Assembly (NCBI RefSeq): GCF_002162835.1
Contig: NZ_MAAX01000196.1
Location: 1 to 37,864, forward strand
DNA from: Nonlabens dokdonensis
GTDB taxonomy: Bacteria; Bacteroidota; Bacteroidia; Flavobacteriales; Flavobacteriaceae
DNA: 37,864 nt
Direction of reading: 5' to 3'
In this document: one piece after another, positions 2,350-36,852 of the stretch
How the letters are laid out: each line of letters starts with the position of its first letter
Position numbering within the stretch: position 1 is the stretch's first letter
Made by a program: the position numbers and the translations under genes
The notes under the pieces: model-generated
The model's input: the letters and a program-made list of their open reading frames with translations, nothing else
Database searches by the model: none
Told to the model about the DNA's origin: nothing

Positions 2350-2446
2350 AAGAACTTTTTTAAGTTCAAATAAAAGGGGCATTTATTCGGTTTGGATTAA
2401 AATAAAATGTTTGAAGGATTCTCTTGAAATAGACTTTTAAGGTGCA

Positions 2447-2462
2447 CGCTTTCGCGAAAGCG
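2447..2462. repeat. 16-bp palindrome, copy 1 (intergenic)
   Basis: A perfect CGCTTTCGCGAAAGCG lies in the leader between the TPP aptamer and the receptor start codon. In RNA it would form an 8-bp hairpin and could take part in the riboswitch expression platform. Confidence 0.9.
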
Positions 2463-2488
2463 AGAACATAACACGCCGTATCTATCTA

Positions 2489-2590
2489 AATCTTTTCCCT
2501 TAGCGACATTACTCGCCCAGGTTCCTTGGGTATTATCTCAGCCATTTCAACAACACTATTCATGCGGTTAAAAAAGCACCCCTTGAGATT
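2489..2590 (-). promoter_or_regulatory. TPP (thiamin pyrophosphate) riboswitch aptamer
   Basis: Read on the minus strand, the segment carries the THI-box signature in order: AAGGGGTGC, then GGCTGAGAT, then ACCC, GAACCTG with GGG pairing to ACCC, then GTAATG and AAGGGAAA. The ends pair as P1 (AATCT at 2586-2590 with AGATT at 2489-2493). The aptamer is about 102 nt, with a long P3 region. About 140 nt separate it from the receptor start codon. TPP binding normally lowers expression, so the receptor should be made when thiamin is scarce. No classical terminator with a U tract is evident in the leader, so control may be translational. Confidence 0.93.
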
Positions 2591-2663: not shown

Positions 2664-5600
2664 TTAACGCTTCAGTGTAAAATGCCCATTATAAATAGCA
2701 CCATTACTACGCTCAACCCTAAACCAATAGTCGCTCGATGGTACAGGACTACCGTTAAAAGTTCCATCCCAGCCTGGTCCTTCTGGACTAATTTGTTTTA
2801 GTAACTTACCATAACGATCAAAAATATAAATCTTATTAGTAGGTTCTTGTTCTGAATTAAATAATTGCCAGAAATCATGAAATCCATCTCCATTAGGCGT
2901 GAAAAATCTTGGGTAAAACAACAAGTAAACATCCTGCTCTACAATCCCGCATCCGTTTTTATCGCGCACGTAAATTTGATAATCGCCCATAGGTAAATTG
3001 TCAAAACGGTTGCTGTCTTGATAGGTGACTCCATCGAGAGAATGCTCATAATCTCCAGATCCATCTACTTCTACAATAACGCTATTATTATCTTGACTCC
3101 AGTCTTCTATTTCAATATTTCTTATTATTGCAACAGTTGATTCTACTACAGTTATATCTTTAGTTTCTTCACAGATTAGTGCGCCATAATCATTTGAAAC
3201 GGTCACAAAATAATTACCAGGTGTGTCAACAATTATAGTTGAAGTGGTTTCTCCTGTAGACCATAAGTAATTGTCAAATCCAGTATCAGCTACTAATTCT
3301 ACTGTATCATTTTCACAAATAGCCCATTGATCTTGCATAAATAGCACTGGTTGTTCATAAACGTTAATACGAAATGAAGTCGTAGCATAACAGCTTCCAT
3401 TAGTTGCATTTTCTAGGCGTACAAATATCTCTTCATTAGTTGTTTGATTGGAATAACTGAAAGGTAACTCGTTGATTCCAATATCTGCATCTGACTGGCT
3501 TGTATAATAACTTATTATATTATCAGTAGCAGATTGACCGTTTAAAATCTCGCTTTCGCGAAAGCGAAGATCAAAAACTTCTGTACCATCATTAGAACTA
3601 TCGTCACATACATCTATATCGCTAGGTTGATTTGCGATAGGCAACCTAGAAACTCCTATATCAAAGGAAATACTCGTGTCGTTACAGCTGCTATTATTTC
3701 TATTTTCTATGCGCACAAACAACGTTTCTCTAGCTGATGTAGTGGTATAAAGAGTAGGTAAAGCACTGTTTCCAGAGTCAGCATCTGACTGATTGGAATG
3801 ATAAGTAACTATAAAATCTATTGCAGACTGACCGTTTAAAACTTGACTGTCATAATTAGATAAATCAAAAACATGTTCTCCATCTCTGGAACTGTCATCA
3901 CAAACAATATCGTTTGCAACTGAATTTGCTTCTGGTGTTAGGTTTACCACAAATTCAATCGTAGTTTGTGCAAAGCAAAACGAGTTAGAAGGATTAATTA
4001 CGGTAGCAGTTATGGTCTGACTACTCGTAATAAAAGGATTAGGTAATGGACTCGAGAGTGAAGCTCCATTTTCATCTTCGTAGGTTACAGTAACAGCAGT
4101 TTGAGAATCTAATAAAGTGGATTCTATCGTGCTGGTATCAAATGCAAAAATACCGTCATTATCAGTATCACAAACTTCAAATACAGGGATAGGATTAGCA
4201 ACAACGCCAGGTTCAACTATGATTTCAATTTGAGTCATTACTGTACAAACTCCATCTGGATCTAATGAACTGGCATTAGTCATTTCTACATCAATTGTTT
4301 GTGAAGCGGTTATCAAAGGATTAGGAAGCGGATTAGGCAATATATTTCCACTGCTATCTCTAAAAGTCAAGTCTACACCTGTTTGGCCTTGTAGTAATTG
4401 CGCATTAATATTTGAAGTATCAATGGATTCAACACCATCGTTATTTGCGTCGCACTGATCTATAATTATGGTATTAGCCGCAGTAGGGTTTTCTTCTACT
4501 ATCAAGTTTACATGATGACCTAAACCAACGCAGTCGTTAGAAGCATTGTCAACTCTTACAAAGATATCTTGTGAGTTGAGAGAACCTAAGTTTTGATAAG
4601 CAGAAATATTTGTAATAGGATTTGCTTCAGTGAGTGCATCACTTTCATTGCGATAGAAATTAACACCAATAGTCTGTCCAGCAGGAAATAGCGCCGCAAT
4701 GTCTGCTTGAGCATTTGTCAAATCAAAAGTAGCAACTCCATCATACAAATCAGCTCCATCATCACATTGATAAATAGTTCTTATGAAGGAAGAAGGTATT
4801 TGACTGGTACTCACATTTAGATCTATTTGGGCTGTTCTATAGCAGCCTTCTGTGTTTTCTACTCTAGCATAAATGATTTGTGAGCTCGAAGTCGTGTTTT
4901 GGTATGTTGTTAAATTAGTTATTGAGTTGGATGCATTTTCAGCGTCTAAAAAATTCTCGTAAAATGTGATCGTGTTTGTGTTGAGATTTGGGATAATCTC
5001 GTCAATGACCTGATTCAGGTTAAAAGTCGTTATCCCATCGGTATCATCATCACATTGATTTAGTTGAACTGTAGCGTTTATGGTAGGTAACTCTAAAACT
5101 TCTATATCAAAGCTCGTTGTTGCGACGCAAGTTGTTTGCAATCTATTTATCATTTGCACATAGATCGTTTCTGATCTATTGGTGTTTTGATATACAGCTG
5201 GATTAGAAATAGGCATTGTCAATAAGGCATCAGTAAAATATTCTAATTGAAAATCTGTGGAAGATTGCCCGTTGTAAATAGCTGATTCATTTGTGGTCAA
5301 ATCAAAAAGTATGCGACCATCTGAATCTGAGCCTACGGAATCGTTATCACATAATCTAATCGCAGGAATGCTCGTAGCAGGCATAGGCGATTCAAATATT
5401 TGAATATCAAATGAAGTCATGGCTTCGCATTCGTCATTTCCTATATTTATAACGCTAGCAATTATCGTTTGAGAACCAAAGGCAACATTATTAGCATACG
5501 CAGACGGATTTGAGATAGGAGAATCATTATTGTAATCTGTCAAGTTTTCAAAATAAACCACCTCAAAAGTAGTAGCAGACTGACCATTGAGAATTACTGA

Positions 5601-28666: not shown

Positions 28667-30268
28667 ATGTCGGAAGAACAAAAAAAACTGCTCGAGAAAC
28701 AACTATGGGCAATTGCCAACTTGCTACGCGGCAAAATGGATGCAGACGATTACCGTAACTACATCTTAGGCTTTATTTTCTTTAAATACCTGTCTGAAAA
28801 GCTGCACCTTTATGCTAATAAAATTTTGGCACCAGATGACTTAACCTATGAACAGCTTGATGAAAAATCAGATCAAGGTAAACTGTACATTGAAGCGGTA
28901 AGAAAAGCATGTGTAAAAGAATTAGGATACTTTTTAAAACCTAGCGAGTTATTCACCTCCATTGCGCAAAAAGGAAATAACCTTTCTGAAATTGAAACCA
29001 ATGATAATGATGAAGCAACTCAGTTTTTTATAATTGAAGATCTAGAACGCATTCTTACTAACATCGAGCAAAGCACCATGGGAGAGGAGTCTGAAGATGA
29101 TTTTGTCAAATTATTTGAAGATCTAGACTTAACCTCTGGTAAATTAGGAAGAACAGTAAAAGCACAAAATGAAACTATTGCAAAAATCATCACGCATCTC
29201 GACAAAATTGATTTTAAACTAGAAGATAACGATAGTGATTTACTAGGGGATGCTTATGAATTCTTAATAGGTCAGTTTGCTGCCAGTGCTGGAAAAAAAG
29301 CAGGTGAATTTTACACACCTCAAGAGGTGTCTACTATACTAGCAAAAATTGTAACCACACGCAAAAAACGATTAAAATCAGTCTATGATCCTACTTGTGG
29401 TTCTGGTTCCCTCCTACTGCGAGTAGCAAAAGAGGTAGATGATGTAGGTATGTTTTACGGTCAGGAATTAAACCGTACAACCTATAACCTTGCTCGTATG
29501 AACATGATTTTGCACGATGTGAGCTATCGCGAGTTTGATATTAAACAAGAAGATACGTTAGAAGAACCACAGCATCTAGATATAGAATTAAGAGCCGAGG
29601 CGATAGTTGCGAATCCACCATTTTCGGCTAAGTGGAGTGCAGCAGGCATTTACAGTACAGACGATAGATTTAGCCAGTATGGTAAACTTGCACCCAAGAC
29701 TAAAGCAGATTTTGCCTTTGTACAACACATGATCCACCATCTAGATGAGAGTGGTATTATGGCAACCGTTTTACCACATGGTGTATTATTTAGAGGGAGT
29801 TCAGAAGCTCATATAAGACGTTATCTAATAGAAGATAGAAACTATATTGATGCTGTTATTGGTTTACCAGCAAATATCTTTTTTGGTACAGGTATTCCAA
29901 CCTGTATTTTAGTAATAAAAAAATGTAGAGAAGTTAACGAAGATGTATTGTTTATTGATGCTTCTAATCATTTTGAAAAACAAGGAAAAGACAATAAGCT
30001 ACTACCAGAGCACATCAATCAAATTGTAGATACTTATACCAATAGAACGGTAACAAATAAATACAGCCACAGAGCAACATTACAAGAAATTGCAGATAAC
30101 GATTACAACCTTAACATACCTCGTTATGTAGACACTTTTGAAGAAGAAGAGCCTATAGATATTACCGCTGTAGCGAAAGAAATACAAAACTTAGACCTAG
30201 ACATTGCAGCAACCGATAAACGTATTGCAACCTATTGTGCAGAACTAAATATTGAAACCCCTTTTTAA
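28667..30268 (+). CDS. hsdM: Type I restriction-modification DNA methyltransferase subunit (N6-adenine)
   Basis: This 533-residue subunit transfers methyl groups from AdoMet to adenine in the system's target. The N-terminal HsdM_N helical domain covers about residues 1-160 (KQLWAIANLLRGKMDADDYRNYILGFIFFKYLSEKL). The AdoMet site is DPTCGSGSLLL at 241-251 and the catalytic motif IV is NPPF at about 315. FYTPQEVSTILAKI and VLPHGVLFRG are further family motifs. It is followed at once by hsdS; the hsdM stop and hsdS ATG are 1 bp apart. Confidence 0.97.
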   Translation: MSEEQKKLLEKQLWAIANLLRGKMDADDYRNYILGFIFFKYLSEKLHLYANKILAPDDLTYEQLDEKSDQGKLYIEAVRKACVKELGYFLKPSELFTSIAQKGNNLSEIETNDNDEATQFFIIEDLERILTNIEQSTMGEESEDDFVKLFEDLDLTSGKLGRTVKAQNETIAKIITHLDKIDFKLEDNDSDLLGDAYEFLIGQFAASAGKKAGEFYTPQEVSTILAKIVTTRKKRLKSVYDPTCGSGSLLLRVAKEVDDVGMFYGQELNRTTYNLARMNMILHDVSYREFDIKQEDTLEEPQHLDIELRAEAIVANPPFSAKWSAAGIYSTDDRFSQYGKLAPKTKADFAFVQHMIHHLDESGIMATVLPHGVLFRGSSEAHIRRYLIEDRNYIDAVIGLPANIFFGTGIPTCILVIKKCREVNEDVLFIDASNHFEKQGKDNKLLPEHINQIVDTYTNRTVTNKYSHRATLQEIADNDYNLNIPRYVDTFEEEEPIDITAVAKEIQNLDLDIAATDKRIATYCAELNIETPF

Positions 30269-30269
30269 T

Positions 30270-31496
30270 ATGGAAAAGCAATTAATACCAATATTGAGGT
30301 TTCCAGATTTTCAAGGTAAATGGGAAAAAGTAATAATATCACAAATTGCTAATAAAATAACTGATGGTACACACGATACACCTAAACCAATAAAGGAAGG
30401 TATTCCCTTTTTAACAGCCATACACGTTAAAGATGGTAAAATAGATTTTGACAATTGTTATTATCTGTCAGAAGAAGAACATAATAAAATATTTAAAAGA
30501 TGTAATCCAGAATATGGTGATTTATTAATGGTCAATATTGGTGCTGGTACAGCTACATCTGCAATGGTAAATGTAAATTATGAATTTAGTTTAAAAAACG
30601 TTGCTTTAATAAAGCCTAATAAGACTAAAATATATCCAAGTTTTTTTGCTCAAGTTCAGAGAAAAAATAGTGATAGGTTAAGACATCAAATATCATCAGG
30701 TGGTGCACAGCCTTTTTTATCTTTGAAAGCTATAGGTAAGTTGAAGTTAAACATCCCATCCTTTCCAGAACAACAAAAAATAGCTTCATTTCTTTCTGAT
30801 ATTGATGATAAAATTACCAAATTAACCAAAAAGAAAACCCTTTTAGAGCAATATAAAAAAGGTATAATGCAAAAAATCTTTAATCAAGAATTAAGATTTA
30901 AAGATGATAATGGTAATGAGTTTCCTAAATGGTCAAAAAATAAAATAGGTAATGTTTTTAGTTCATTTAAAGGTAAAGGCATTCCGAAAGGAGATGTAAT
31001 AAGTGGTGGAGTTAACAAATGTGTTTTATATGGTGAACTATATACAACCTATAATGAAGTAATAAATAAAGTTGTAAGTTCAACAAACAGCGAAGATGGT
31101 TTAAAATCACAAAAAGGGGATTTATTAATACCTTCTTCTACTACTACCACAGGTATAGATTTAGCAAACGTAACAGCACTAAATTTTGATGATGTTTTAT
31201 TGGGTGGTGATATAATTGTGATGAGAGGTAAAAAAGAAATTAATAATATCTTTTATGCTTACTACTTATCAAACTACAAGAAACATCAAATAGCTTCAAG
31301 GGCACAAGGGATTACAATTGTACATATTTATTTCAATAGTATTAAGGATTTAGAGATAGATATTCCTGTAATTGAAGAACAAACGAAAGTAGCCAATTTT
31401 TTATCAGACATAGATGTAAAAATAGAAGCCTTAAATACAAAAATTGAAAATAGTAAAGCCTTTAAAAAAGGGCTATTGCAAAAGATGTTTGTTTAA
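30270..31496 (+). CDS. hsdS: Type I restriction-modification specificity subunit
   Basis: This 408-residue subunit sets the target sequence. The ATG of MEKQLIPILRFPDFQGKWEK is used; a TTG 18 bp upstream inside hsdM was not. Two target-recognition domains (about 15-170 and 215-375) are each followed by a conserved helix: FLSDIDDKITKLTKKKTLLE near residue 177 and FLSDIDVKIEALNTKIE near 380. Both helices end in a similar KGxxQKxF motif. This two-fold layout is typical and predicts a bipartite recognition site, which cannot be read from the sequence. The gene is intact. Confidence 0.95.
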   Translation: MEKQLIPILRFPDFQGKWEKVIISQIANKITDGTHDTPKPIKEGIPFLTAIHVKDGKIDFDNCYYLSEEEHNKIFKRCNPEYGDLLMVNIGAGTATSAMVNVNYEFSLKNVALIKPNKTKIYPSFFAQVQRKNSDRLRHQISSGGAQPFLSLKAIGKLKLNIPSFPEQQKIASFLSDIDDKITKLTKKKTLLEQYKKGIMQKIFNQELRFKDDNGNEFPKWSKNKIGNVFSSFKGKGIPKGDVISGGVNKCVLYGELYTTYNEVINKVVSSTNSEDGLKSQKGDLLIPSSTTTTGIDLANVTALNFDDVLLGGDIIVMRGKKEINNIFYAYYLSNYKKHQIASRAQGITIVHIYFNSIKDLEIDIPVIEEQTKVANFLSDIDVKIEALNTKIENSKAFKKGLLQKMFV

Positions 31497-31508: not shown

Positions 31509-32078
31509 ATGGAACGTAGAAAAATTGTGGATTATGTGGTAATTAAAGCCAATGGATTTAACGATGATATCAATAAACTCATAAGTGATGAGATTAGATT
31601 TAGTAATCTTTTTAATGAACATTCTGAGAAAATTGAAGATTTAGAAAGGAAAACAATTCATTTACAAAAGAGTTTTGACGTATTTCAAGAACTACTAAAA
31701 TTAGAAGATGGAAAAGAGTATCCAGTATTAGAAACATCAACAGACATTGAATTTGCAGAAGACCACCCTTTAATGAATGTTAGTATTGTGGATCAAAAAA
31801 AAGTAGGTTTAATCAAACATGATGAGATTAATCAAATTATACTTAACATTAAAGAAGCTTTAGAAATTAGCAATAAATCGCTAAACTCTAATAAAAAAAC
31901 TAAATCGATGTATTTAAGAAAGATTAAAGAATCGAAAAACATAAGAACGTCCTTTGAAAAAAAGGTGTTAGACCTTTTAAATAATGGTTATGAGTTAGTT
32001 GGTGGCGCTCAAATAAAATATGAATCTGGTTTTCAAACTTTAATAAAATATGAAGGTAGCGATAAAGGATTAGATTAA
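31509..32078 (+). CDS. Unknown protein in the hsd operon, DUF1737-like C-terminus
   Basis: This 189-residue protein has no signal peptide or membrane segment. The N-terminal half is charged and partly coiled-coil (NEHSEKIEDLERKTIHLQKS, about residues 38-57), with another helical stretch near 115-150. The last 35 residues (LDLLNNGYELVGGAQIKYES followed by GFQTLIKY) resemble the small DUF1737 domain; this is a judgement by eye. It starts 12 bp after hsdS and is followed after 26 bp by another unknown gene, so it is probably co-expressed with the RM system. The function is unknown. Confidence 0.75.
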   Translation: MERRKIVDYVVIKANGFNDDINKLISDEIRFSNLFNEHSEKIEDLERKTIHLQKSFDVFQELLKLEDGKEYPVLETSTDIEFAEDHPLMNVSIVDQKKVGLIKHDEINQIILNIKEALEISNKSLNSNKKTKSMYLRKIKESKNIRTSFEKKVLDLLNNGYELVGGAQIKYESGFQTLIKYEGSDKGLD

Positions 32079-32104: not shown

Positions 32105-32626
32105 ATGCAACAAAACAAGGCAAGTTTTATAAATTATGAAATATGGATACTAAGCATCATGGGTGCTTTTGGTAGGGCAAACGTCTATAAAGAGAATACA
32201 CCTGAAATTAAAAAAACATATTTCAAGAATAAACTGAAAGGCTATTTAGATGACATGATAAATTCTAATTATTTAAAACCTATTGCACATTTTCAGCATT
32301 TAGAGAATATCAATGAACTCATTCATTATTCAAAAATGTATGGAGAAGTTTTGCGTAATGACACGTTTAACTTTGGTGTGACACAAAAATTATTAAATTT
32401 ATATCTAAAGTATCATTGGTGTTTAGGTTTAATTCCAGCACCACCGCATTTTCCCGTAGATAGCATTATTCAAAAAAAACTAGGACTTAAAGTTGTACCA
32501 TGGACAAAGTTTGAAGATGATACAGAATATTTAAGAATTATAAGTCATTCTGAAACACTGTTAGAAAAATATGATTGTTCTAACATTGCAGAGCTTGAAT
32601 TAAAATTATTTAGTAGAAATATCTAA
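32105..32626 (+). CDS. Unknown protein in the hsd operon (173 aa)
   Basis: I cannot assign a known family. The protein is soluble and mostly helical by composition. The central block FGVTQKLLNLYLKYHWCLGL (about residues 90-109) with following PAPPHFPVDSIIQKKLGL and VPWTKFEDDTEYLRI looks conserved in style and recalls hypothetical proteins I have seen in restriction and defence loci. It lies between the DUF1737-like gene and the long non-coding gap before the Abi gene. A defence or accessory role is inference from position only. Confidence 0.75.
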   Translation: MQQNKASFINYEIWILSIMGAFGRANVYKENTPEIKKTYFKNKLKGYLDDMINSNYLKPIAHFQHLENINELIHYSKMYGEVLRNDTFNFGVTQKLLNLYLKYHWCLGLIPAPPHFPVDSIIQKKLGLKVVPWTKFEDDTEYLRIISHSETLLEKYDCSNIAELELKLFSRNI

Positions 32627-32876
32627 AAAAAAGGATTGAAACCAATAATTGAAAAATAGAACACAAACAAAATAACCATGTAACAGGCATGTAACTAAGT
32701 GAGCTCAAAAAATAGAGAATACTAGTAAAAGCAGTACATACAGATGTAGAAGTAATTTAACTAAACTAATAAACATCTATCATAAATAAGTAAAACAATA
32801 TGATAATTATAAGTTATAAGAGAAAGAAAAATGTTAAAGAATATGAAGAAACTTCACATATACCAACTACAAGTCA

Positions 32877-32884
32877 TATATTTG
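32877..32884 (+). promoter_or_regulatory. Predicted -7 box of a non-coding transcript before the Abi gene
   Basis: TATATTTG matches TAnnTTTG exactly and is identical to the -7 box of the rimP promoter. The -33 region has only TTCA one base off the ideal spacing. Transcription would begin near 32890, about 155 nt before the Abi start codon. Confidence 0.5.
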
Positions 32885-32889
32885 CCACA

Positions 32890-33026
32890 ACATTACACAC
32901 TACGCCACAGGTTCAAATCCATTTGAATACCAAATCTCAGGGTGTGTCTTTTGAAAAGAACGTACTAGTTACTAAAAATAATACACCTTCCTTGCCTCTC
33001 TACGATGCACACTTGGAAGGTTTTTT
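32890..33026 (+). ncRNA. Candidate structured non-coding RNA upstream of the Abi/HEPN gene
   Basis: The predicted transcript of about 137 nt contains nested complementary segments: ACACAC (32895-32900) with GTGTGT (32942-32947) enclosing GG-TTCAAAT-CC-ATTTGAA (32910-32927) with a closing CC at 32930-32931, and a 3' terminator hairpin. No convincing protein is encoded. Small RNAs next to AbiF-type HEPN toxins, acting as RNA antitoxins, have been described recently; the position and orientation fit that model. The RNA ends and fold are predictions by eye. Confidence 0.5.
32985..33026 (+). terminator. Intrinsic terminator just before the Abi gene
   Basis: ACCTTCC (32985-32991) pairs with GGAAGGT (33015-33021), with an inner TGC/GCA pair, followed by six Ts. 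It ends about 20 bp before the Abi ATG, so it would separate an upstream transcript from the Abi coding region. Confidence 0.65.
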
Positions 33027-33045
33027 CATTTCAAATATTTTTTAA

Positions 33046-33993
33046 ATGGCTAAAAAATCATACACTAAACAGCCATTAAGCTTTGAAGTTCAACTACAGT
33101 TATTAAAAGATCGACAATTAATCGTGAATAATGACATTAAAGCATTATCCTATTTAAGGGGTGTTAGTTATTACAGATTAAGCGCGTATTACTTGCCTTT
33201 TCAAGAAAAAAAAGATGTGTTTAATAAAGGCACTAACTTTCAAGAAATTATAGATATCTATTCTTTTGACAGACAACTTAGGTTACTAGTTTTTGATTGC
33301 ATAGAACGTTTAGAAATTGCCATAAGAACACAATTTATATATGCTATGTCTATGCATCATGACGATTCTCATTGGCAGGACAATAAAGCTCATTTTGTTA
33401 AACCTTATTATAATGGAGTTGGTAACCTTGTAGATCCTTATTCAGATTTACAGAATATTATTTCTAAAGCAAAAACAAATAGAAAACCAGAGGTTTTTAT
33501 AAAGCATTACATAGATACTTACAATAAACCATCAAATCCTCCATCGTGGATGTGTTTAGAATTACTTACAATAGGTCAACTATCACATATCTATCGAGGA
33601 TTAAGAAATAAAGCAGACAAGAAACGCATTGCTGATTTTTTTGATGTACACCCATCGGTATTTCAATCCTGGCTTCATTCTATAACCTATGTTAGAAATT
33701 TATGTGCACACCATTCTAGATTATGGAATAGAGATTTAGCTATTGAACCCAGTAGATTATTAAAACCTGTGGGACATTGGGTAGGCTCAGAATTTCAAAA
33801 CAATAAACGCGTTTTTTACTTCATTTGTGTTTTAAAATATCTATTACTAAGAGCAAATCCTGGCAATAGTTTAAAAGATAAATTAGAAACCTTATTTGAG
33901 AAATATCCTAACGTCCCCATAAAGTATATTGGAATCCCTTCTAATGGGCAAGGACAAATTTTAAATTGGAAGGAAGAAGCACTTTGGAAATAA
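33046..33993 (+). CDS. Abi_2 family (AbiD/AbiF-like) HEPN abortive-infection protein
   Basis: This 315-residue protein belongs to the Abi_2 family, whose members cause abortive infection against phages. N-terminal hallmarks are LSFEVQLQLLKDRQLIV and LSYLRGVSYYRLSAYYLPF. The middle has YSFDRQLRLLVFDCIERLEIAIRTQ. The key site is RNLCAHHSRLWNR: Arg217-x4-His222 is the R-x4-6-H motif of HEPN ribonucleases, so RNA cleavage is the probable toxic activity. The gene lies between hsdS and hsdR; hsdR starts 6 bp after its stop, so the two are probably co-transcribed. A 419-bp non-coding gap with a candidate RNA gene precedes it. Confidence 0.92.
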   Translation: MAKKSYTKQPLSFEVQLQLLKDRQLIVNNDIKALSYLRGVSYYRLSAYYLPFQEKKDVFNKGTNFQEIIDIYSFDRQLRLLVFDCIERLEIAIRTQFIYAMSMHHDDSHWQDNKAHFVKPYYNGVGNLVDPYSDLQNIISKAKTNRKPEVFIKHYIDTYNKPSNPPSWMCLELLTIGQLSHIYRGLRNKADKKRIADFFDVHPSVFQSWLHSITYVRNLCAHHSRLWNRDLAIEPSRLLKPVGHWVGSEFQNNKRVFYFICVLKYLLLRANPGNSLKDKLETLFEKYPNVPIKYIGIPSNGQGQILNWKEEALWK

Positions 33994-33999
33994 ATAACT

Positions 34000-36852
34000 A
34001 TGACTACCCAACCAGAACAAGTATTAGAAAATAATTTGATAAGTCAGCTAATAGGTTTAGGTCATCAACCTATTTCAATAAAGACAGAAAATGATTTATT
34101 AAGTAATCTAAAATCACAATTAGAAAAGCATAATAAAATAACATTTACAGCTTCGGAGTTTGATCGAATCGTCATACATCTTTCTAAAGGAAACATATTT
34201 GACAAAGCCAAAACACTACGCGATAAATACGTGCTTCAAAAAGATAATGGGGAAAAGGCCTATATCGAGTTTATCAATCAAGACTTCTGGTGTCAAAATC
34301 ATTTTCAAGTTACTAATCAAATAACCATAAATGGCAAAAGAGAAAATCGTTATGATGTAACTATATTGATAAATGGCTTGCCATTAGTTCAAATAGAATT
34401 AAAGCGTAGAGGTATTGAACTTAAAGAAGCCTTTAATCAAATACAGCGTTACCAAAAAGAATCGTTTGCATCTAACAATGCATTATTTAATTACGTTCAA
34501 ATATTTGTCATCAGTAATGGAGTAGACACTAAATACTATGCTAATAGCCCAAAACAAAGTTTCAAGCAGACATCTTTTTGGGGAAATGAGAAGAATAAAA
34601 AAATCACCCAACTAGAGCCATTTACAAACATCTTTTTAGAACCATGTCACATAGCAAAAATGATAACCAAGTATATCGTATTGCATGAAAGTGATAAAAT
34701 ATTAATGGTGTTAAGGCCCTATCAATTTTTTGCAGTAGAAGCGATAATAGATAGAGTAAAAAATAGCGATAAAAATGGTTATATCTGGCATACCACTGGA
34801 TCTGGTAAAACGCTTACTTCATTTAAAGCAAGTCAAATACTAACACACAATCCTAAAATTAAGAAAGTTGTATTTGTAGTGGATAGACAAGATCTAGACG
34901 ATCAAACTGTAAGAGAGTTTAGAGCCTTTGATAAAGATAGTATTGATGGTACAGAAAACACCAAAATGCTTATCAATCAATTTTTGGATAATAATAGGCC
35001 ATTGCTTGTTACCACTATTCAAAAATTAAACAGTGCTATTTCAAAAGCTAAGTTTAGAAAACAAATAGAAGCTCTCAAAGATGAAAAGGTTGTATTCATC
35101 TTTGACGAGTGTCATCGTTCCCAATTTGGTGACACACATAAACGTATCGTTAATTTCTTCACTAACCATCAGTTATTTGGGTTTACAGGGACACCTATAT
35201 TTGCAAAAAATGCACTATGTGTAAATAGCATCAAACAAACTACAGCAAACCTATTTCATGACTGCCTTCACCGTTATGTTATTACAGATGCTATTAGAGA
35301 TGAAAATGTTTTAAAGTTTTCTATTGAATATTATAATGTATTCAAGTCAAAAGAAGATTTCAATGATATCAAAGTAATAGACATTAATACACAAGAAGTT
35401 TATGAGAGTGACAATTACATAGAGGCAGTAGCTAACTACATCCTCGCTAATCACAACCGTAAAACACACCACAGGACTTTTACCGCAATGTTTTGCGTTA
35501 GTAGCGTTGACATACTAATAAAGTACTACGATCTTTTAAAAGCTAAGAAAGAAGCAGGTGTTCACAACTTAAAAATCGCTACGATATTTTCTTATGTGGC
35601 TAATCCAGATGATGCAGATGCAAATGGAGAGATTGTTGAGGAAGATTTTCCAGATTTAAATATTGCCGCAGAGTCTTCTGCGACTTACGAAACGATACCA
35701 CGCAAGGATAAGCTAGACCTCTACATTAATGATTTTAATGAACAATTTAAAACAAATCATTCTGCACGAGATGGAGTTACTTTTTTGAATTACAAAAAAG
35801 ATATTTCTAAACGAGTTAAAAATAAGCAGATTGACATTTTATTAGTGGTTAACATGTTCCTAACAGGATTTGATAGTAAATCTTTAAACACACTTTACGT
35901 AGATAAGAACTTGAACTACCATGGTTTAATTCAAGCCTACTCGCGTACTAACAGAATATTAAACGAGAAGAAGTCGCAAGGAAATATTTTAGCTTTCCGA
36001 AACTTAAAGGAAAATACAGATGATGCTATTGCTCTATTTTCAGACAAAAATGCAAAGGAAACTATTACCATAGATTCTTATGACATACAAGTTAAAAAGT
36101 TCAATAAAGCCTACAAAGAGTTAATGACCATTGCTCCGACTGTCGATAGTGTAAACGATTTAGAAGCTGAAGATGATGAGCTCGCTTTCGCGAAAGCGTT
36201 TAGAGAGATAATGCGTCTAAAAAATATTTTGTCCTCATTTGTAGAATTTACATTTGATGATGTTTATATGAAAGAACAGGAATTTGCTGACTATACGAGT
36301 AAATACTTAGATCTGTACGATAAAATTAAAACAAACAATCAAAAGGAATCTGTTTCAATTTTAAATGAAATTGATTTTGAATTGGAGCTTATACATCGCG
36401 ATGAAATTAATGTAGCTTACATCATGCGTTTATTAGCAAAACTTAAAGATGCTAAACCTAGAGATAAGGCTAAAGCTAAAAAGGAAATTATTGATTCTAT
36501 TGCTGGAGAATCTGAACTGAGAAGCAAACGTTTTCTAATTGAAAAATTTATTGAAAATAATCTACCAAAAATAAATGATAGCGGAAATGTAGAAGTTGAG
36601 TTTAAAGCTTACTGGCAAGCTGAAACCAAAAAAGCACTACAAGAACTAAGCAAATCAGAGCTACTGCAACCGGACAAGGTAGAATCTATTATAAACGATT
36701 ATATGTTTACTGGTAGAATGGCGACTGAAGACGAAGTGATAGAAGCATTAGAAAAACAACCTAGTGTTCTTCAAAGGGAAACCATTAGTGTAAGAATCAC
36801 AGAAAAAATTAAAGATTTTGTGAAAACGTTTATTAATGGGGTGGATGGATAA
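34000..36852 (+). CDS. hsdR: Type I restriction enzyme subunit R (nuclease and translocase)
   Basis: This 950-residue subunit cuts unmethylated DNA after ATP-driven translocation. The N-terminal PD-(D/E)XK nuclease has Asp119 (NRYDVTILING) and Glu133-Leu-Lys135 (VQIELKRRG). Helicase motif I is TGSGKT at 266-271, motif II DECH at 369-372, motif III GFTGTPIF, and motif VI is in QAYSRTNRI. The C-terminal helical region interacts with HsdM/HsdS in the family. All active-site motifs are present, so the RM system appears functional. A 16-bp palindrome at 36183 encodes LAFAKAF. The gene is convergent with the HNH gene, with 12 bp between their stop codons. Confidence 0.96.
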   Translation: MTTQPEQVLENNLISQLIGLGHQPISIKTENDLLSNLKSQLEKHNKITFTASEFDRIVIHLSKGNIFDKAKTLRDKYVLQKDNGEKAYIEFINQDFWCQNHFQVTNQITINGKRENRYDVTILINGLPLVQIELKRRGIELKEAFNQIQRYQKESFASNNALFNYVQIFVISNGVDTKYYANSPKQSFKQTSFWGNEKNKKITQLEPFTNIFLEPCHIAKMITKYIVLHESDKILMVLRPYQFFAVEAIIDRVKNSDKNGYIWHTTGSGKTLTSFKASQILTHNPKIKKVVFVVDRQDLDDQTVREFRAFDKDSIDGTENTKMLINQFLDNNRPLLVTTIQKLNSAISKAKFRKQIEALKDEKVVFIFDECHRSQFGDTHKRIVNFFTNHQLFGFTGTPIFAKNALCVNSIKQTTANLFHDCLHRYVITDAIRDENVLKFSIEYYNVFKSKEDFNDIKVIDINTQEVYESDNYIEAVANYILANHNRKTHHRTFTAMFCVSSVDILIKYYDLLKAKKEAGVHNLKIATIFSYVANPDDADANGEIVEEDFPDLNIAAESSATYETIPRKDKLDLYINDFNEQFKTNHSARDGVTFLNYKKDISKRVKNKQIDILLVVNMFLTGFDSKSLNTLYVDKNLNYHGLIQAYSRTNRILNEKKSQGNILAFRNLKENTDDAIALFSDKNAKETITIDSYDIQVKKFNKAYKELMTIAPTVDSVNDLEAEDDELAFAKAFREIMRLKNILSSFVEFTFDDVYMKEQEFADYTSKYLDLYDKIKTNNQKESVSILNEIDFELELIHRDEINVAYIMRLLAKLKDAKPRDKAKAKKEIIDSIAGESELRSKRFLIEKFIENNLPKINDSGNVEVEFKAYWQAETKKALQELSKSELLQPDKVESIINDYMFTGRMATEDEVIEALEKQPSVLQRETISVRITEKIKDFVKTFINGVDG
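36183..36198. repeat. 16-bp palindrome, copy 9 (inside hsdR)
   Basis: A perfect copy read as LAFAKAFRE in the C-terminal helical part of HsdR, within the integrated element. Confidence 0.95.

Follow-up and report, generated by a model that had tools for sequence, protein, structure and literature searches.

An AbiF-type HEPN gene with a candidate RNA antitoxin in a type I restriction-modification operon of Nonlabens dokdonensis, and solitary hairpins of the same RNA family in viral sequences

The window, by which we mean the whole stretch of 37,864 nucleotides of Nonlabens dokdonensis contig NZ_MAAX01000196.1 that was analysed, contains a type I restriction-modification (R-M) operon with a gene for an Abi_2 protein between hsdS and hsdR (Table 1). 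A preliminary description made from the letters alone had placed a toxin and its RNA inside an R-M operon, and the hsdM, hsdS and hsdR genes identified around abi agree with this. The gap of 419 bp (32627-33045) which it had described upstream of abi is present. Since hsdR begins 6 nt after abi, it lies downstream of the same terminator as abi; read from the map, a toxin gene and a restriction gene are found behind one common terminator. Two ORFs with no assigned function are located between hsdS and the RNA (31509-32078, 189 aa; 32105-32626, 173 aa), and in other loci this slot is occupied by different ORFs or by none. At the end of the 173-aa ORF there is a lone CRISPR-repeat-like stretch (32608-32642; CRISPR-DR7, 23 bits, gathering threshold 37).

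Table 1. Genes and RNA features of the R-M operon in the window.
Feature	Position	Strand	Basis and remarks
hsdM, type I R-M operon	28667..30268	+	PF02384, E 1.6e-107
hsdS, type I R-M operon	30252..31496	+	PF01420, E 1.5e-23
Promoter-like TATATTTG (TAnnTTTG)	32877..32884	+	Sequence; 18 nt 5' of the first hairpin base
5' hairpin of the RNA	32895..32947	+	Fold; located where other loci have their antitoxin hairpin, core remodelled
3' hairpin, abiF RNA core (RF03085-like); outer helix doubles as intrinsic terminator	32985..33021	+	Rfam, models R1 and R2, covariation
U tract of the terminator, six Ts, 5' of abi and hsdR	33021..33026	+	Sequence; ends 19 nt before the ATG at 33046
Abi_2 (AbiD/F-type) HEPN protein, 315 aa	33046..33993	+	PF07751, E 3.7e-57
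hsdR	34000..36852	+	PF12008, PF18766, PF04313

The Abi protein also matched PADLOC AbiD (E 7e-74) and PDB entry 8vz6_A (E 7.7e-45), the one solved relative found by sequence (E up to 0.001), all of which suits its earlier designation as an AbiF-type HEPN toxin. A domain search over all 315 residues returned Abi_2 alone and no ABC ATPase. The R-x4-H motif of HEPN proteins, previously read as R217-x4-H222, is indeed formed by R217 and H222, five residues apart; among 30 aligned Abi proteins R217 is invariant and H222 is present in 90% or more. These residues align with R210 and H215 of PbAbiF, which are given as the residues of its inactive variant (PMC12373285), and 8VZ6 is described as PbAbiF in an RNA-protein complex with its RNA (PMC12737573). 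Judged by its sequence, the product is an AbiD/F-type HEPN protein with both catalytic residues; RNase activity and toxicity as a dimer are known from papers for its relatives and are putative for the window protein. The genome to which the window belongs (93% complete) has one Abi_2 gene.

The promoter-like box is an exact copy of TAnnTTTG, which we take to be the Bacteroidota -7 box, and it stands where the preliminary description had reported it. Among homologous abi loci (see below), an exact box 17-20 nt 5' of the first hairpin base was observed in 27 of 55, the window included, versus 0.22% of shuffled leaders, while the others had one mismatch (7 loci) or two or three (21 loci). This count used 55 of 59 loci, L003, L004, L005 and L038 being left out because the start of the 5' hairpin was unclear; the hairpin start was set by hand for L006, L008, L009 and L050, taken from matches to model R2 for L018, L024, L025 and L029, and taken from a hairpin scan for all others. 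From the spacing, the RNA is expected to start near 32889, close to the approximate 32890 proposed before.

The complementary segments that had been noted in the gap resolve into two nested-arm hairpins (Table 1), and the terminator with six Ts, said to end about 20 bp before the ATG, ends 19 nt before it. The 3' hairpin, which ends 24 nt 5' of the ATG and directly upstream of the Abi_2 gene, has a stable fold (z -3.65; 1 of 200 shuffles equally good), and a T-rich stretch is found at the position of the U tract in seven class A homologues. The fold of the 5' hairpin is unremarkable (z -1.66; 14 of 200 shuffles as good), and so is that of the whole 151-nt leader (z -1.70; 13/200). The fold energy of the leader was rejected as sole evidence, because it does not set the leader apart. 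Against model R2, the 5' hairpin scored 12.3 bits (E 0.0058 in 501 bases), its outer helix alone matching, and its place is taken by other hairpins in L002, L006, L037 and L055.

At gathering thresholds no Rfam match was obtained anywhere in the window. Below the threshold of 37 bits, RF03085 (abiF RNA) aligned to 32986-33021 with 31 bits (E 0.0011 in 501 bases). Homologues of the same class scored on both sides of this threshold, with 44.6 bits for L003 and 42.3 for L005, and 36.3 for L037 and 27.1 for L006; L002, L004 and L055 did not reach it either, and RF03085 attained its own threshold in 5 of 20 chosen loci. A search with RF03085 over 39 related genomes gave no match anywhere, that of the window and 14 controls included, and is therefore uninformative. 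Two covariance models, R1 and R2, were also used. R1 scored 75.5 bits on the 3' hairpin, but the window is one of its training rows; R2, which was built without the window, gave 17.7 bits, with an E value of 2.4e-4 for a search of 501 bases and of 0.14 for one of 294 kb. The hairpin possesses the two helices (outer and inner), the conserved loop and the 3' bulge of abiF RNA, supported by covariation. Of the arrangement characteristic of type III toxin-antitoxin loci (repeated antitoxin motifs, terminator, toxin gene), the order is present, with one clear motif. The gap before the Abi gene holds an RNA gene of the abiF kind, and the locus is, on good evidence, a further member of the AbiF/abiF-RNA toxin-antitoxin group.

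Abi proteins 68-74% identical to that of the window were found in five named genomes, and further homologues came from searches of overlapping genome sets (395 from the phylum, 395 from the class, 296 from the window's order and 8 from one order). Upstream conservation and covariation, proposed as a check in the preliminary description, were both found: the 3' hairpin recurs 5' of Abi in seven loci (L002-L006, L037 and L055; Abi 37-74% identical), ending 15-31 nt 5' of the Abi match, and its stem shows compensatory changes. Five of the seven loci have the 15-base core without a mismatch, while L002 has it with two mismatches and L004 with three. The core pattern GCCTCTCNACGATGCACA occurs in 4 of the 395 genomes of the window's class, directly before Abi in three of the four, and the reversed pattern had no match in genomes of this class among the matches listed. 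Over eight loci GCCTCTC and GCACACT are invariant and the outer helix varies; the inner helix is constant within class A and differs between classes A and A'.

In the eight rows of class A, 80/80 cells are paired and 4/10 pairs have changed on both sides (8/500 shuffles), the count of further pair types being no higher than in shuffles (405/500). For classes A and A' together (11 loci), 110/110 cells are paired and 5/10 pairs have changed on both sides, a value as high in 21 of 5000 shuffles, and the count of further pair types is again ordinary (1928/5000 as high); these counts were made on a hand-laid layout from which L009 and L022 were left out, as their helix or bulge length differs, and alignment A4, in which two classes are out of register, was excluded. 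The related class B' gave 99.4% of 175 cells paired and 6/11 pairs, and none of 500 shuffles reached any of the five measures.

An R1 or R2 hairpin (E <=0.1) was located directly 5' of Abi in 53 of 59 loci; 24 of the 59 are training rows, and several are near-duplicates (e.g. L012-L015), which lowers the number of independent cases. In the six loci with no model match (L031, L040, L049, L053, L084 and L085) the hairpin scan revealed a hairpin with a T-rich tail. Loci L057-L061 (E above 1e-40) were left out of the set. L057, a split gene, has an R2 match, while the distant loci L058-L061 matched neither model, which indicates that pairing with this hairpin is not universal in Abi_2. Each model was run on 64 sources, R2 covering all 59 loci and R1 all except L012-L015, L017, L019, L020, L023-L030 and L032-L036. 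Three further R2 matches lie away from the Abi match (L032 826-872, L033 836-882 and, with E 0.05, L082 2958-3013). The contig of L012 carries an Abi gene on each strand, the two being preceded by hairpins of different classes at 2445-2492 (-) and 3607-3653 (+). Among plasmid records Pseudomonadaceae T75 alone contains a similar hairpin (E up to 1); it is 90% identical and lies 16 nt before an Abi match. On bacterial contig G514, a class A hairpin (L213, 1501-1518) is located 3' of an exact TAnnTTTG box and no Abi gene was found in the 927 nt 3' of it; it is a candidate for an orphan antitoxin or a piece of a prophage.

The constant part of the RNA is consequently its 3' hairpin, and the 5' hairpin is rightly placed with a core that is not conserved. 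The proposal in the preliminary description that the whole 137-nt RNA is the antitoxin is therefore supported in part, its 3' portion alone being conserved. One kind of 5' module is shared by L002, L006 and L055; that of L037 is of another kind and matches the hairpin of L053 and L056, and further kinds occur in the window, L003, L004 and L005. Two hairpins are also present in RCd22 of Clostridioides difficile (PMC12373285), so that a two-hairpin RNA is not in itself new.

An 81-codon frame (32800-33045), in phase with abi and ending just before its ATG, was considered as the gene of a protein antitoxin or leader peptide. Apart from its length, phase and stop just 5' of the ATG, this would be favoured by the frame homologous to it at the hairpin, which is open across the hairpin core in seven relatives. 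However, the 81-codon frame has no Pfam match and the frame in phase with abi contains stops in 7/7 homologous loci. The hairpin-homologous frame has 96, 48, 47, 4, 30, 50 and 15 open codons before the hairpin, lacks an upstream ATG, GTG or TTG in three of the seven loci, and has an end that wanders between 29 nt 5' and 52 nt 3' of the abi start. Its variable columns by codon position are 6/15, 4/16 and 6/16, with third positions not favoured, a pattern which fits selection on RNA and not on a peptide. No sign was seen of the purifying selection on this frame that had been named earlier as possible counter-evidence to an RNA. A peptide gene was rejected on the in-phase stops, missing starts, wandering end and codon-position pattern, and coding by this frame is regarded as extremely improbable.

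The order hsdS - abi - hsdR is also found in L002, L003, L004, L006, L037, L055 and L054, in part with extra ORFs between hsdS and abi. In L016 and L085 abi is immediately 5' of hsdR, and in L038 and L041 R-M genes flank abi on both sides in other gene orders. In total, type I R-M neighbours were identified in 12 of 59 loci, the window included, the stretches examined often being only 1.5 kb; no R-M genes were found beside abi in L005, whose Abi protein is 70% identical. The RNA of L004 and L037 is preceded by some 33 codons from the start of an hsdR gene, and a full hsdR lies 3' of abi, which looks as if an RNA-abi cassette had been inserted as one piece, with duplication. Embedding of Abi2/AbiF/AbiD genes in R-M operons was already tabulated in a review of HEPN proteins (PMC3710099), and the presence of AbiF inside such operons is accordingly not new.

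Like RF03085 members, the window has, immediately 5' of an Abi_2 gene, a hairpin of about 37 nt that combines an outer and a short inner helix with a conserved loop and a 3' bulge; it differs in its score below the gathering threshold, in a hairpin that is also a terminator, and in the second, divergent hairpin before it. Among studied systems, PbAbiF-AbiFr was reportedly described by Zilberzwige-Tal et al., Cell 2025. It is a Prevotellaceae AbiF HEPN dimer with its RNA (PDB 8VZ6; via PMC12373285, PMC12737573), in which binding between RNA and protein is stated to neutralise the toxin (via PMC12737573). The window unit differs from it in lying in an R-M operon and in its longer, two-hairpin leader. 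In RCd22-AbiFCd of C. difficile the RNA is reported to bind the toxin directly and so to neutralise it both in cis and in trans, and AbiFCd mutated at R/H was not toxic (PMC12373285). This system shares with the window a two-hairpin RNA of similar length with its own promoter, a terminator before the toxin gene and a HEPN toxin, whereas it belongs to a prophage lysis module and not to an R-M operon, both of its hairpins are abiF motifs, and its terminator is separate. By homology, the window RNA may act as an antitoxin and outnumber a toxin message whose synthesis depends on read-through. PrrC, of the EcoprrI type Ic R-M locus, is the studied R-M-linked HEPN nuclease (PMC2610378, PMC3710099). 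Like the gene in the window, prrC encodes a HEPN RNase and is linked to a type I R-M operon; PrrC, however, is kept in check by the R-M enzyme and contains an ABC ATPase part, whereas the window encodes a small Abi_2 protein together with an RNA.

The reading we prefer, with a probability of roughly 0.87, is that hsdS and hsdR enclose a self-contained toxin-antitoxin unit of AbiF type. Its parts, their conservation and covariation, the operon position and the families come directly from the present analysis. The promoter would drive a short RNA from about 32889, and the U tract would end most transcripts, so that the RNA would outnumber the toxin message. The 3' hairpin, in which loop and 3' bulge are largely fixed and the helix is variable, would bind the Abi_2 HEPN dimer and block the RNase site, and would also work in cis as terminator. 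Transcription, binding, neutralisation and toxicity are here put forward for the window unit on the example of the published relatives. Rare read-through would yield the toxin and, because hsdR starts 6 nt after abi, HsdR as well. A shortage of the RNA, for example when a phage stops host transcription, would then free the toxin and arrest the cell; this trigger and the coupling to hsdR are conjectural. Several observations weigh against a toxin-antitoxin unit: the 31 bits of the hairpin against the 37 of Rfam, the RNA's unconserved 5' half, the ordinary number of further pair types in class A, L005 with no R-M genes, L058-L061 with no model match, and the 28 of 55 loci in which the exact promoter box is missing.

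The same hairpin might instead be a cis element alone, a terminator or attenuator which keeps abi and hsdR low and has no antitoxin action in trans. The six Ts 3' of the hairpin, 19 nt before the ATG, are what such an element would have, and control by RCd22 is described as including premature termination (PMC12373285). A bare terminator, however, needs no fixed loop and bulge, and neither GCCTCTC nor GCACACT varies among eight loci; the same core is found in virus records where the Abi_2 gene was not found, and RCd22 is reported to act in trans (PMC12373285). We consider a role in cis alone decidedly improbable. It is also thinkable that the variable 5' module serves as a sensor or guide ahead of a constant handle, so that a phage transcript titrates the RNA or is targeted by it, as on the proposed path from AbiF to Cas13. 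Although the 5' modules do differ among close relatives while the 3' hairpin stays, the recognisable one, that of L037, matches antitoxin hairpins of other units (L053, L056), pointing to a second hairpin for toxin binding like that of RCd22, and the 5' half of the leader gave a single 21-nt match (E 0.4) against phage records. This possibility appears very improbable.

Also unlikely is a guard similar to PrrC, in which the R-M complex mainly holds the Abi RNase, a phage block of restriction frees it and the RNA is secondary. R-M linkage in 12 of 59 loci argues for it, comprising the hsdS-hsdR position in the window and seven others, the place before hsdR in two and flanking R-M genes in two; the HEPN review which lists Abi2/AbiF/AbiD in R-M operons proposes guarding of this sort (PMC3710099), and PrrC is kept silent by its R-M enzyme (PMC2610378). 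On the other hand, the Abi_2 domain was found alone, with no ABC ATPase of PrrC type, and 47 of the 59 loci (stretches often 1.5 kb), the 70% identical L005 among them, have no type I R-M neighbour. The window protein is therefore no PrrC; its way of working may still be similar. A mixed form, with the RNA as everyday antitoxin and the R-M enzyme as sensor, is possible and overlaps with the toxin-antitoxin unit preferred here.

What may be considered the surprising part lies outside the window, in solitary copies of the hairpin carried by viruses. When the leader was searched against phage records, Aeromonas phage PZL-Ah8 and Salicola phage CGphi29 matched at the hairpin, with 50.1 bits each for RF03085 and no annotated Abi gene in the surrounding 6 kb. 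In viral contigs the class A core was found in at least 120 stretches, the class A' core in 42 (full listing) and the class B core in one, which has an Abi gene 3' of it; the viral origin was called from IMG/VR, named records and PHROG matches. Ten large proteins from ten chosen contigs gave eight matches to PHROGs of named function (among them portal, tail fibre, ribonucleotide reductase and DNA polymerase), one to a PHROG with no named function and one no match. A profile search detected an Abi gene in 1 of 120 class A loci (among the matches listed) and 0 of 42 class A' loci. Pfam Abi_2 run over the whole viral records, many of which are fragments, likewise gave 1/120 (among the matches listed) and 0/42, and detected the domain in the positive controls phiC2, Listeria phage LMC and the record of L256. 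A viral-contig search with the Abi protein itself found no relative. None of eight named phages (PZL-Ah8, PT2, T7-Ah, PZL-Ah152, S-CREM1, S-SZBM1, Pasto and CGphi29) carries Abi_2, an absence that is firm for records deposited as complete alone, the CGphi29 record being titled genomic sequence. Seven of the eight pass the RF03085 threshold; Pasto scores 30.3 bits. The solitary viral hairpins, nearly all with no Abi_2, are L086 (3010-3046), L087 (2997-3033), L257-L262, L090-L209 and L214-L255.

Exact cores are present in 162 examined viral records (classes A and A', among the matches listed), mostly with an outer stem. Of the distinct class A flanks among the matches listed, 85/91 reached a stem score >=5, versus 4.0% of shuffled and 41.6% of exchanged flanks, the latter value being high because many flanks are alike. 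For class A' the figures were 30 of 40 distinct flanks, with 36 different 5' arms, versus 4.0% shuffled and 10.6% exchanged. The score was missed by 6/120 class A (among the matches listed) and 10/40 distinct class A' flanks, some of which may be chance occurrences. Going by their flanks, the virus-borne hairpins are real structures.

The class A' hairpin in L248 belongs to Acinetobacter phage Acj61. Four T7-like Aeromonas phages carry the hairpin between the connector and scaffold genes, 16-19 nt 3' of the GGG in CCCTGACTATAGGGATAAC, which resembles a T7 promoter. By eye, their relatives Mak and JELG-KS1 have another, plain hairpin in the connector-scaffold gap, indicating that the abiF hairpin is accessory at that place. 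In cyanophages S-CREM1 and S-SZBM1 it lies among tRNA genes, which were also found in 20 of 35 chosen class A viral contigs (among at least 120).

We lean towards the view that solitary phage abiF RNA hairpins are RNA-based anti-AbiF decoys, that is antitoxin mimics, and that the hairpin classes and two-module RNAs of the hosts are the other side of an arms race; the phage hairpin could instead serve message stability or termination alone. Two published cases, pseudo-ToxI (PMC3475682) and the RNA anti-CRISPRs or Racr (PMC10651486), are described as phage-borne RNA halves of a defence which disarm it. The likeness is a solitary phage copy of a defence RNA with no protein partner; the differences are that other defence systems are concerned and that inhibition was demonstrated there and is inferred for abiF RNA. 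An abiF sRNA of S-CREM1 is reported and termed probably functional in passages of PMC9964418 that do not mention AbiF as its target. A literature search found no proposal of virus-borne abiF RNA as an anti-AbiF decoy, most subscription papers lying outside its reach.

That an AbiF-RNA unit is part of a type I R-M operon, with the restriction gene behind the same terminator, predicts joint control of toxin and restriction. AbiF has been proposed as the ancestor of Cas13 (PMC12737573, PMC12373285), so the natural variety of its RNAs, and the ways in which it is countered, would bear on how an antitoxin could become a guide. If the virus hairpins are decoys, they would represent a widespread RNA counter-defence and natural inhibitors of AbiF-like HEPN RNases, and would point to phages meeting AbiF in nature.
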